NCBI GenBank assembly: GCA_016630905.1
Contig: WBMQ01000003.1
Span: 620,001 to 684,000 of the forward strand
Source of the DNA: Capillidium heterosporum
Taxonomy: Eukaryota > Entomophthoromycota > Entomophthoromycetes > Entomophthorales > Capillidiaceae
Direction of reading: 5' to 3'
DNA: 64,000 bases
The position numbers and the translations under genes are program-made. Below the pieces are notes generated by a model, which was given only the letters and a program-made list of their open reading frames with translations, was not told the DNA's origin and did not search any database. Below, in pieces: positions 1,408-61,749 of this stretch (position 1 is its first letter; the number at the start of each line of letters is the position of its first letter).

Positions 1408-2736
1408 ATGGCAAACACAATCCAAGGTAGCTTTTTTATATTAGTAATACACACTAACCATTTATATCTTATAAAGATGTCTACATAATTTCAAGTGCCC
1501 GAACCCCAATTGGAAACTTCAGTGGAAAACTTTCTACCATAACAGCGATTCAACTAGGAACTATTTCAGTCAAAGGTAAGTATCTTTTGTTGTAGCTTAA
1601 AGTCTAATTTAATTTATTCTTACTAGCTGCAATTGAAAAGTCAGGAGTACAGGCAAGTGAAGTTGAGGAGGTATTCTTTGGCAACGTATACACGGCCAAT
1701 CTAGGTCAGAATCCAGCTCGACAGGTAGCTCTTAACTCGGGAATAAGTGAGACTACACCCTGCACTACCTTGAACAAGGTATGCGCCAGTTCTCTCAAAG
1801 CAGTAAGCTTAGCTGCTCAAACTATCCAGCTTGGCCATGCTGACGTAGTAGTTGCCGGTGGTATGGAGTCGATGTCCAACGTGCCTTACTATCTCCCCAA
1901 TGTACGTAACTCTGGACTCAAGTACGGTGACAGCACTTTGATCGATGGGTTGCCTAGGGATGGTCTCCACGACGCCTACGAACATTGCCCCATGGGCAAT
2001 TTTGCTGAACTGTGCTCCAAGGAACACAGCCTATCACGTACCGATGCTGACAACTACGCCGTACGTTCCTACACCCTGGCACGCGCTGCCCATGAGAACG
2101 GTTCCTTCAAGGAGGAGATCGTACCGGTCTCGGTACCCCAACCCGGTCGAGGTCAACCTGACCTAGTCGTCGACATCGACGAGAGTTGCCAACGGTTCGA
2201 CGAAGCCAAAATGCGTTCGGTAAAGCCTGCCTTCCCCAAAGCTGGTGATACCGTCACTGGTCCCAACGCCTCCAGCCTCTCTGATGGTGCTGCCGCTTTA
2301 GTCTTAGTATCGGGCAGATGGTTAGAGAAGGCCAAGGCCGAACAAAGACTTCAGCCCAATATCCAGGTCTTCCAGGTCTTGGGTTACGCCGATGCTGCCA
2401 CCACTCCCAACAAGTTCACCACCGCACCCGCGTTGGCCATCCCCAAAGCTTTAGAGCGGGCCAACATCTCAATTGATGAAGTTGACTACTTCGAGATCAA
2501 CGAAGCCTTCTCGGCCGTCGCCTTGGCCAACGTGGCTCTACTGACCTTGGACATTAACAAAGTCAACGTGTTTGGAGGTGCTGTAGCCATCGGCCACCCC
2601 CTAGGCGCTTCGGGAGCCCGAATTTTGACCACTTTAACCTCGGTCTTGAAGGCTAAGAAGGGTAAGGTTGGAGTTGCTGGTATTTGTAATGGAGGAGGAG
2701 GTAGCTACTGCTTTAGTTATTAAGCGTTTGGATTGA
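1408..2736 (+). CDS. ERG10: Acetyl-CoA C-acetyltransferase (acetoacetyl-CoA thiolase), with one +1 frameshift near the C-terminus
   Basis: Condenses two acetyl-CoA to acetoacetyl-CoA, the entry step of the mevalonate/sterol pathway; it belongs to the thiolase family. Exons: 1408-1426, 1477-1575 and 1627-2736. The start ATG opens [19 protein letters not shown], the usual thiolase N-terminus. The acylated cysteine is in [10 protein letters not shown] (about Cys92). [28 protein letters not shown] and CNGGGG are the C-terminal active-site blocks. In the zero frame the protein ends at 2723 with an unusual tail ([10 protein letters not shown]). Skipping the A at 2703 gives [14 protein letters not shown] and a TGA at 2734-2736, the family's normal end, so I place the stop there. 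About 405 residues, normal for the family. There is no peroxisomal targeting tail, so a cytosolic role is inferred. Confidence 0.94.
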
Positions 2737-3068
2737 CTAAGCAGTGGTAGTAACAAACTTTTGAACAAACTCTAATTAAACGTATATCACTTTTTTAGTT
2801 TATATATATCGAAATCTTTTAGCTACATAGTGTTTTAATTATTTGATGATACAAAGCATCTTACTTTGGATATTGTAAAGTATTTGCAAAAATAAGAGAG
2901 ATAGCTTGATATAAAACTCAAGTTATTAAAACTATAAAGAATCATAACATAATATAGCATTTATTAATATGCGGCATTTAACTAACAGCATGCAAATAAT
3001 TTAAAATATAAATATATAACTTGGAGTGTATAAATAATTTAGAGGGTGTCTAACTTACCTAGTCCAAA
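2737..3068. other. Convergent spacer between thiolase and DNA polymerase eta
   Basis: AT-rich, 3' side of both flanking genes. I see no gene in it; it presumably contains both polyadenylation regions. Confidence 0.5.
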
Positions 3069-58539: not shown

Positions 58540-59637
58540 AATCGGAATTCCAAACATTTGCATAAAAATTTACATATCCATTAAAAGTTTTGTTCCTCCC
58601 CTACACTTTACTCTGTTCCTACTGTGGATATTTGTATAAATTAGAACTACGAATAAAATATATATCAAAGTTACTAGGATTTATAAATTTATCTATGTGA
58701 AAGCCTTTGCTTTGCAATATATTGGATGTTTACAGCTTTTTGATCTCGATATATTCTATATCTCAAGGTTTTTGTTGTATTTTATATTCGGACTTCAATC
58801 TTTTGGGATGGGATTGTAATGTACAGGTGCTGACCAAAGCTTAGGTTCGGTTGAAAATTGTATTTATACGATAAGCTCCTTAAACTGAACAAGAACTCTG
58901 CCTTCCTAAATTAATTACTTTAATTCTAGACTTTGGTCAAGGTCATGCGCTAATATCGACCTTTTCTTTAAAAAGTAGTCTAGTTGGAACTGCTTTCTCT
59001 CATTAATCTTTACTGGACAGATGGCTTTATGTAAATTTAGCAAGGTGCATGTTCCCAGTAAACATGAAGAAATTTATTTGCTAGGACAATCTCATCAGGA
59101 ATCATGGATGAAGTACAACCTTGAGAGCTATCGCCGCTCTTCATAAGCCATTTTATTAGTCATAAAAGTTCTTGTAATCATACTTAGGTTGGAATAGTTT
59201 TCTATCCAACCTTTGAACCATGTTAGCATCCTTGACAAAATTTTCCCAAAACTTGGTCGAGATTTTCATCCAGTTTTCACTATACAGTATTCAAATTTGA
59301 ATTATATAAAGTAAATAGGCAAGGCTTGCAAACTTTTAATATTCTTATATTGAATTCTGGTTAATCTTCCTGTATCAAAAATTAGATGCCTTACTTGAAA
59401 TAAAATCATGTTTTTAAATAGAGGATATCCATTTCAGTACTATAGCTGCTAAGGTTTCAAGTCATCTATAAATATATATTTAAAGATAAATATTCAAGAT
59501 ATATTTATGAATAGTAAATAATATAACGGTATTCCTTTTAACTAGAATTAGTACTTGAACTTTAAAACTGTATCTATCTATCTAGCAGCCATACAGCATA
59601 TCTAATTTTTAACCCGCTCGTATAAAAAGCTAGCATT
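58540..59637. other. Convergent spacer between receptor and MTO1
   Basis: AT-rich; no gene seen. Holds the 3' ends of both neighbours. Confidence 0.5.
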
Positions 59638-61749
59638 CTAAACATCGATTCGATACCTCCTAATATACTTTGATAGCAACAGTACGGAAGTTGGGGTAAC
59701 TCCAGGTATACGTTTAGCAGCTCCCTAAAGTAAAAAAGTATTAGTATCAAAAACAGGTAAAAAGTAGTTACCAAAGTACTTGGCTTGGTTTTAGTCAACT
59801 TCTCAGTATCTTCTAACGAGATACTTAACCTATAGGAATAAAAATTGCAACATAAGTAAATATATATATATAACACATACTTGGAATAATCGATGTTTTG
59901 AGGGATGAGTTGGTTTTCGTCCTGTTCAAATCGAACCAGATCCTGATGCTGCTTCTCGATGTATGAGTTGTACATCCCCTCCACCTCAGCAACCTTCAAG
60001 ACTCGTTTGTTGAAATCCTTCAAGCTCGGTATCAAGTTCAATTTTAAGTAGAAGTCTAGGCTGCAGCTGGGATGCTCCAACATCTTAAAAGCACTATAAG
60101 AAGCCATAAATAAATAAATAATAAGATAGGTTTACCTCTTATAGTTACCATCAAGTGCCAGCTTAGCACCGGTAACCTTACCCCACTCGTTGGGTGAAAG
60201 TTTGAACTCTTTCAAACTCTCCTTGACCTTGCTCAAATCCTCTTTATCCTTCGAAAACCTATCGAATCTCTCCTTACTGACGACACCACACTGGTATCCT
60301 AATTCGGTCAACCTCAGGTCAGCGTTGTCTTGTCGGATGGTGAGCCTGTACTCGGCCCTACTCGTAAATATACGGTACGGTTCTTCAACACCTTTAGTAG
60401 TTAAGTCGTCGACAAGTACTCCGATGTAACTGTTGGCTCGGTTTAGGATCAACGGACTCTTGCCTAGGCAGTTCAAAGCAGCGTTGGTACCAGCAACCAA
60501 ACCTTGAGCTGCAGCCTCTTCGTACCCGGTTGTGCCGTTGATCTGCCCAGCTAGGAATAGGCCTTCACACTTTTTGACTTTCAAGGTTGGAGCCAGTTCT
60601 CTAGGGTCGATATGGTCGTACTCCACACCGTAGCCCGGTCTTGCCATCTCTACGTTTTCTAAACCTCTTACAGTTCGAAGAAATTCAAGTTGGGAGTCGG
60701 GCTTCCATAGTCATTGATATGCCATTGGGGTAGATCAAAGTATCTTCAGCTAAGGACTCCGGCTCTAACCAGATGTTGTGGCCATCTTTTTCTGTGAATC
60801 TTAGGACTTTAGATTCGATACTGGGGCAGTACCTCGGCCCACGTACTGACTCCTTGACATGGATGTTGCGGTCGAACTGGGACTTGATAATTTCGTGTGA
60901 TTTTAAATTGGTTCTCGTTTGGTAGCAAATTATCTGGCTGGCTTCGTTGGCAACTTTGCTGTTCAAAAAGGAAAAGGGAGTCGGTGGGTCATCTCCGAAT
61001 TGTTCCTTGAGGCCTTGGAAGTTAATTGAAGATTTCAAGAGTCGAGGTGGTGTTCCTGTCTTCATCCTACCTAGCTTCAGTCCCAATTTCTCGATACTTT
61101 TCGAAAGGTTAGAAGTGGGATTCTCACCATATCTACCAGCCGGGTACGCTTTCAGCCCGATGTGAATTTCCCCTCGCAGAAATGTACCGGTAGTAATAAC
61201 TACATTTGTACTCGATATCAGACTATTATCCTCCAGTTCTATCCCCTTCACCTTACCGTTGTCTATAATTAAATGTTTTACCGAACCTTCCTTCAAATTT
61301 AGGTTTTTATATCCCTTCAAAGTACTTTGCATTCCACTCCTATACAAGTTTCGATCGATTTGGGCCCTTGGACCGTAGACTGCCGCTCCCTTTGACAAGT
61401 TCAACATCTTGAATTGAATACCACTGTTGTCACATAGCTTCCCACATAAGCCATCTAAAGCATCTATTTCCTTGACTAAGGTGCCCTTACCTATACCACC
61501 GAAGCTTGGGTTGCAACTCATCTCACCTATCTTTGTCAAGTCGGTAGTTATTAATAAAGTTGAACAGCCGACTCGAGCTGAAGCGGCGGCAGCTTCACAA
61601 CCGGCATGGCCTCCACCAATTACTATTACGTCGTAACGATAGGGATTAGCCGAGTCGCTTACAAGACTTGCTGGCGTATACTTTCTAATAAAGTTTAGTT
61701 TTTGGGTCGGCTGCCGTAGTAAATTGAAGTTGAGCTTTCGAAGTAACAT
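59638..61749 (-). CDS. MTO1: Mitochondrial tRNA uridine-5-carboxymethylaminomethyl modification enzyme (MTO1/GidA/MnmG), with one +1 frameshift
   Basis: FAD enzyme that, with MSS1/MnmE, modifies U34 of mitochondrial tRNAs. Exons (minus): 61749-60136, 60093-59881, 59829-59772 and 59724-59638; about 656 residues. The basic N-terminus ([20 protein letters not shown]) is a mitochondrial presequence. The FAD fold is [21 protein letters not shown]. MnmG signatures are [37 protein letters not shown] and [11 protein letters not shown]. Further blocks are [36 protein letters not shown] and, at the end, [13 protein letters not shown]. At 60699-60701 (GGG on +, CCC in sense) the zero frame gives [14 protein letters not shown]; one C fewer gives [18 protein letters not shown], the family sequence. 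The exon total is 3n+1. Divergent from the cysteine synthase gene. Confidence 0.96.

Follow-up and report, generated by a model that had tools for sequence, protein, structure and literature searches.

Does an organism whose conserved genes each carry one base too many really live with these bases, or were they put there on the way from its DNA to the assembly? The window examined here, a 64,000-nucleotide stretch of a fungal draft assembly (positions 620001-684000 of contig C23, in 29,545,739 bases and 44 contigs), raises this question, since, on direct reading of its DNA, the frame shifts by a net +1 in each of six genes, i.e., those for a thiolase, a sphingosine-kinase-like protein, a flavin adenine dinucleotide (FAD)-dependent monooxygenase, a WDR48-like protein, a cyclin H-like protein and MTO1/GidA. 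The surplus bases are almost certainly sequencing or assembly errors, single-base insertions that remained in the under-polished draft of an Entomophthorales-like fungus. The assembly as a whole has an excess of +1 breaks that are spread over genes and contigs and follow no evident decoding rule, together with one missing base.

That six genes carry one surplus base each, as an earlier note on this window had proposed, is thus borne out as a net +1 in all of them, and two of the breaks are confirmed by comparison with sequences of relatives. In MTO1/GidA the surplus base lies in a C run on the minus strand (60699-60701). There the Pfam GIDA profile is matched from its position 1 to 310 in one frame and from 310 to 390 in the next, and the number of residues over the join, counted by hand on the alignment rows, is the same as in the relatives; the gene model described below calls this break at 60698. 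In the thiolase (acetyl-CoA acetyltransferase) gene, on the plus strand with a main open frame at 1608-2723, the surplus base sits near the 3′ end, at 2703. The six aligned relatives have GGGGA[SG]AxVI at a place where [14 protein letters not shown] is read in the zero frame; in the +1 frame the alignment picks up the family sequence again. The gene model never called this site, which is about 30 bases from the gene end.

Among the 120 matches listed for the MTO1 protein the nearest come from Neoconidiobolus thromboides, Entomophthora muscae and Massospora cicadina (60-66% identity), and the same three fungi are found within the best six thiolase matches; judged by these proteins, the host is an Entomophthorales-like fungus. 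Identity never rises above 66% in the listed MTO1 matches, so that the protein database searched would seem to contain neither the organism's own proteins nor those of a close relative. For Conidiobolus coronatus a PacBio genome of 44 Mb has reportedly been published (PMC12387763). Two proteins filed as Populus alba are also among the listed thiolase matches, at 56% and 50% identity, one of them ranked fourth.

The FAD-monooxygenase, WDR48-like and cyclin H sites, all on the plus strand, fit as far as the reading frame and the known sequence of each family go. The first is a surplus base in a C run near the 3′ end of the gene (41409-41411; gene model 41404), with FAD_binding_3 upstream and a zero-frame TGA next; the second falls in or just after the WD40 region (45666-45670; gene model 45667), with WD40 upstream. 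The pieces downstream of these two breaks gave no supporting Pfam family. In the cyclin H-like gene the surplus base is in an A run of the first coding exon (52719-52722; gene model 52720 at the loosest setting), outside the Pfam Cyclin_N match at 53043-53321. The sphingosine-kinase-like gene (plus strand, DAGK_cat downstream) is where the earlier note and our reading part, as the former placed its break at 35177-35180 and a single frame stays open straight through that position. The sole homologue found (P0121; weak, 29% identity) aligns, from the TIPFQ..G.KL stretch onward, with the frame that is open over 35178, the query carrying an assumed join; the gene model, blind to this alignment and run at its loosest setting, breaks the frame at 35115. 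The Pfam scan did not locate the break and gave no family in the last exon. Taken together, these place the break well before the position given in the note: the +1 is real and probably lies near 35097-35115 or at the preceding splice site, some 60-80 bases upstream of 35177.

How one-sided the breaks are was judged with a gene model combining a three-periodic order-4 coding model and GT-AG introns, in which skipping one base (+1) or two (-1) carries equal penalties. Sample and training set were the same 35 regions (294,668 bases, window included), from which 94 genes with 118,156 coding bases were parsed. At the main setting 17 calls were +1 and one was -1 (two-sided P=0.00014). The ratio was 13:1 when flank scores of at least 5 were required on both sides, and 22:2, 11:1, 10:1, 7:1, 23:2 and 17:1 at other settings. 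A +1 call is present in 16 of the 94 parsed genes, at a sensitivity of about 75% for interior sites, and the former figure of about a third of gene models affected does not carry over to this wider sample.

The model itself is close to neutral as to sign. When single-base duplications or deletions were planted in clean genes, the model found 293 of the 390 insertions, and 279 of the 390 deletions, with the right sign; at an earlier setting the recoveries were 178 and 181 of 258, respectively, against false calls in 0 of 258 for the untouched genes, which had been chosen as clean. False calls on antisense shadows came as +1 and -1 in ratios of 4:3, 9:8, 43:43 and 805:738 as the penalty was relaxed, and those on reversed sequence as 16:15, 40:33 and 252:243. 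Insertions and deletions are therefore sensed about equally, false calls are nearly balanced in sign, and the +1 excess is beyond chance, genome-wide.

Three of the six window genes were re-found by the main setting unaided (41404, 45667 and 60698), and a looser one adds 52720 and 35115. Within the window, at three gene-model settings (27.8 kb coding), no -1 call was made. Two further +1 calls there are regarded as false, one (2341, minus strand) being the thiolase's antisense shadow and the other (7782) falling inside an intact open frame. Outside the window, eight of the 12 calls were viewed in translation; four were convincing (C41 308738, C44 501240, C5 902975 and C7 132563) and four could not be judged (C44 504330, C44 503999, C5 909117 and C12 1609705), the remaining four (on C38, and at C12:1339517, C23:2509383 and C44:1013148) being taken from the model alone. 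The loosest setting adds a second -1 call at C1:2208762, also a model call alone. At a sensitivity of about 75%, coding sequence would hold one error in every 5 kb if all 17 calls are counted, and one in every 13 kb if only the seven convincing ones are.

The same picture is obtained independently of the gene model by a profile survey in which neighbouring Pfam matches in different frames, without room for an intron, count as a frame break. Genes for HSP70 have +1 breaks on C23, C41 and C6, plus two in one gene on C1, and an aldehyde-dehydrogenase gene has one on C12; all six were confirmed in the DNA letters of short stretches. Two more full-length HSP70 genes (C44:646788 and C32:700516) are unbroken. 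An Hsp60 gene on C7, whose pieces match GroEL models, has one +1 and then, about 500 bases on, a -1, the missing base being at C7:about 132057-132069. The contention that a base is never missing agrees with the calls made within the window and fails beyond it. Nine chaperonin clusters were seen; seven of the eight besides that on C7 were scanned and gave matches to seven different CCT subunits, which leaves the C7 gene as the only Hsp60 gene seen. Other rows of the profile search were inspected by eye only, the Hsp60 breaks being the only ones taken from them.

For the ABC-transporter domain 19 of 92 candidates were scored, and 11 of these 19 matches lie in six genes whose frames run unbroken for 1191-1305 codons. 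Going by match coordinates only, one further ABC gene (C6:176227-178585) has an offset of the +1 type; that in another (C44:1295183-1297638) is of the -1 type, unless it reflects a pair of +1 or an intron; four single matches in shorter frames were left unjudged. On C2, C3, C32 and C44 (several on the last) there are also many divergent HSP70-like copies in which stops interrupt the frame and offsets of either sign occur; the family is an expanded one and may partly be decaying. These were set aside, the four that were fetched (L061-L064) having been picked for their -1-like look.

If ribosomes were to skip these bases, the sites should tell by what rule. For twelve sites the flanking protein sequence gives the position: five in the window, five in HSP70 genes, and one each in the aldehyde-dehydrogenase and Hsp60 genes. 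The sphingosine kinase and the calls that have only the frame to place them are not among these, and for three (FAD-monooxygenase, WDR48-like and cyclin H) the placement relies on what is known of the family sequence. Any of the four bases, A, C, G or T, can be the surplus one. At nine of the 12 sites it makes a run of its own kind one base longer, at two (thiolase and Hsp60) it does not, and one (aldehyde dehydrogenase) is ambiguous. A randomly inserted base would touch an equal neighbour in 43% of cases, which makes the excess a modest one (P=0.027). At eight of the 12 sites, including those in the thiolase, in MTO1 and in the HSP70 genes on C23, C41 and C1, the zero frame continues for at least four codons beyond the slip before any stop; in the HSP70 gene on C23 it is free of stops for the rest of the fetched stretch (more than 30 codons). 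Were the shift in the thiolase and in MTO1 postponed to the zero-frame stop, proteins of equal length but with the wrong residues would result. Compared by eye, the codons around the placed slips differ from site to site and share no common heptamer, no formal motif search having been made, and the genome-wide heptamer that had been suggested as something to look for finds no support in these contexts. The slips obey no evident stop-codon or codon rule.

Insertion errors are favoured by this random spread, by the lengthening of runs, by the two breaks within one HSP70 gene, by intact genes beside broken ones and by the rare deletion in Hsp60; the lesions hit unrelated housekeeping genes on several contigs irrespective of codon. 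Such errors would enter when the DNA is sequenced or the consensus is called. Mostly they would repeat a neighbouring base once more, with a frequency of about one in 5-13 kb of coding sequence, and any of them falling in an exon would show as a +1 break. The homopolymer indels left in long-read assemblies, such as those that Kastor targets (PMC12007338), are alike in that there too single-base indels, mostly in short runs, break conserved genes of a draft. It had been proposed earlier that insertion errors of long reads are the likeliest cause; insertion errors are indeed the best explanation, and for the long reads the contiguity of the assembly (29.5 Mb in 44 contigs) speaks in favour, whereas published profiles are less one-sided.

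Several observations weigh against this explanation. The +1 bias is more one-sided here than in the published long-read errors consulted: the main example of Kastor consists mostly of false deletions (PMC12007338), where almost all are insertions here, reads of Oxford Nanopore Technologies show a deletion bias in homopolymers (PMC9713900), PBSIM3 gives substitutions, insertions and deletions of Sequel continuous long reads (CLR) as 22:45:33 (PMC9713900), and NPBSS lists deletions above insertions for raw CLR (PMC5964698). As the bias is unlike these error profiles, the sequence does not allow the platform to be named. The count of lengthened runs is helped by some latitude in the placement of the base. 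Four of the 12 sites (FAD-monooxygenase, C6 HSP70-like, aldehyde dehydrogenase and Hsp60) have a zero-frame stop no more than two codons after the slip, where 14% would be expected given that 7.5% of codons are stops in the frame seen after the surplus base (P=0.08). Non-coding and repeated DNA, where errors should fall as well, offers too little power or sequence to help: twelve full copies of 5S rRNA, all of 119 bases and of equal score, and one partial copy were found among the 47 of 1018 candidates that were scored, about 1.4 kb, for which the expectation is 0.1-0.3 errors; in 18 sources the gathering score is reached by one U3 and four tRNAs; and two near-identical inverted pairs of 0.8-0.9 kb, seen by self-comparison of the sampled DNA, have no single-base gap and are too short. 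In the tRNA search the best 63 of 2727 candidates were scored, and a copy with a surplus base would not necessarily be among these. Finally, we infer from the letters of the assembly alone that the cellular DNA would be without the extra bases.

What else could have produced the breaks? They might be genuine frameshift mutations, in real pseudogenes or in loss-of-function alleles of the strain, and the divergent HSP70-like copies, with their internal stops and offsets of both signs, do look decayed. The conserved genes that are broken, however, have no other decay in the stretches read, and true loss would be expected in both signs, and not in Hsp60 and several HSP70 genes together. We know of no mutational process that gives insertions over deletions at 17:1. 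We hold this explanation to be very unlikely.

Still less likely is it that the bases are real and that the ribosome skips one per site, by Euplotes-like or otherwise tolerated frameshifting throughout the genome, although the strong excess of +1 over -1, the conserved and functional-looking sequence on both sides of the site in several genes, and the four early stops mentioned above would all suit it. Programmed +1 frameshifting of the antizyme and Ty1 type operates in single genes with a defined slippery sequence: in the ornithine decarboxylase antizyme a shift codon precedes UGA, and Ty1/Ty3-type sites have a slippery heptamer in common. One base is skipped there as well, and the FAD-monooxygenase site does have a stop after the slip. 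But the sites found here, with contexts compared by eye, share no evident sequence, let alone a heptamer, and their genes are unrelated. An antizyme-type slip, raised earlier for the monooxygenase, loses ground as only that site in the window abuts a TGA, and no antizyme match was found by Pfam among the scanned window pieces (cyclin H being outside that scan).

The nontriplet decoding of Euplotes (PMC10235951; PMC4759687) likewise involves +1 breaks in many genes. There +1 shifting is general, takes place at stop codons and is predominantly after AAA (PMC10235951), whereas eight of the 12 placed slips here are at least four codons before any zero-frame stop, i.e., not near one, and this also tells against the tolerated or programmed shifting that had been offered as the alternative. 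Since the codons at the surplus base vary by site, slips at unrelated codons would be needed; +1 shifting does not rescue the missing base in the single Hsp60 gene found; and the six ABC-transporter genes that stay unbroken over their whole length make the lesion look sporadic. What would be left is a genome with thousands of real one-base insertions, absorbed by a relaxed +1 shifting that obeys neither a stop-codon nor a codon rule, and this is very improbable indeed. Literature searches on frameshifts and Entomophthorales listed no frameshift-rich genome of this order, which is not proof of its absence from print.

Introns that were missed, or editing that removes the base from the mRNA, can practically be dismissed: introns are short (median about 41 bases in the gene model) and frame changes between exons common, but the two-frame matches in MTO1, HSP70 and aldehyde dehydrogenase overlap or are at most 10 bases apart, confident introns beginning at 30-34 bases (the model's lower limit being 26), and the mixture of A, C, G and T seen here is unlike base-specific deletion editing.

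If the breaks are artefacts of assembly, as preferred here with very little doubt, the surplus bases are of interest only as a warning as to quality, for a sizeable share of gene models would be broken at roughly the frequency given above, and claims of gene loss or pseudogenes made from this assembly would be unsafe. Were the bases real, the triplet rule would be overturned for a fungus.

A few further observations concern the repeated DNA of this assembly. One of the two inverted pairs consists of subtilisin-like protease genes in the window (9801-10606 on the plus and 15847-16652 on the minus strand), 98.8% identical over 806 bases without a gap, which points to a recent duplication or to gene conversion. 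The other, in C23:2500001-2510000 (L054), at 513-1401 and 6192-7077 of that region, is 99.3% identical over 889 bases with one 3-base gap. Clusters of tRNA genes of equal score are found at C43:1119330-1147863 and C43:273320-283767, some in opposite orientation, at distances from several hundred bases up to a few kb. Two AMP-binding genes, at C2:1494232-1495296 and C14:44378-45442, score 243.1 and 242.2 bits and both have 517-codon frames, and C14 may represent either a second haplotype or a segment duplicated from C2. The 5S rRNA copies lie on C15, C20, C25, C26, C29, C30, C34, C36 and C39, at a spacing of about 9.0 kb where neighbours are seen (e.g., C20:2038 and 11033), which suggests that the 5S gene is inside a tandem 9-kb repeat, probably the rDNA.

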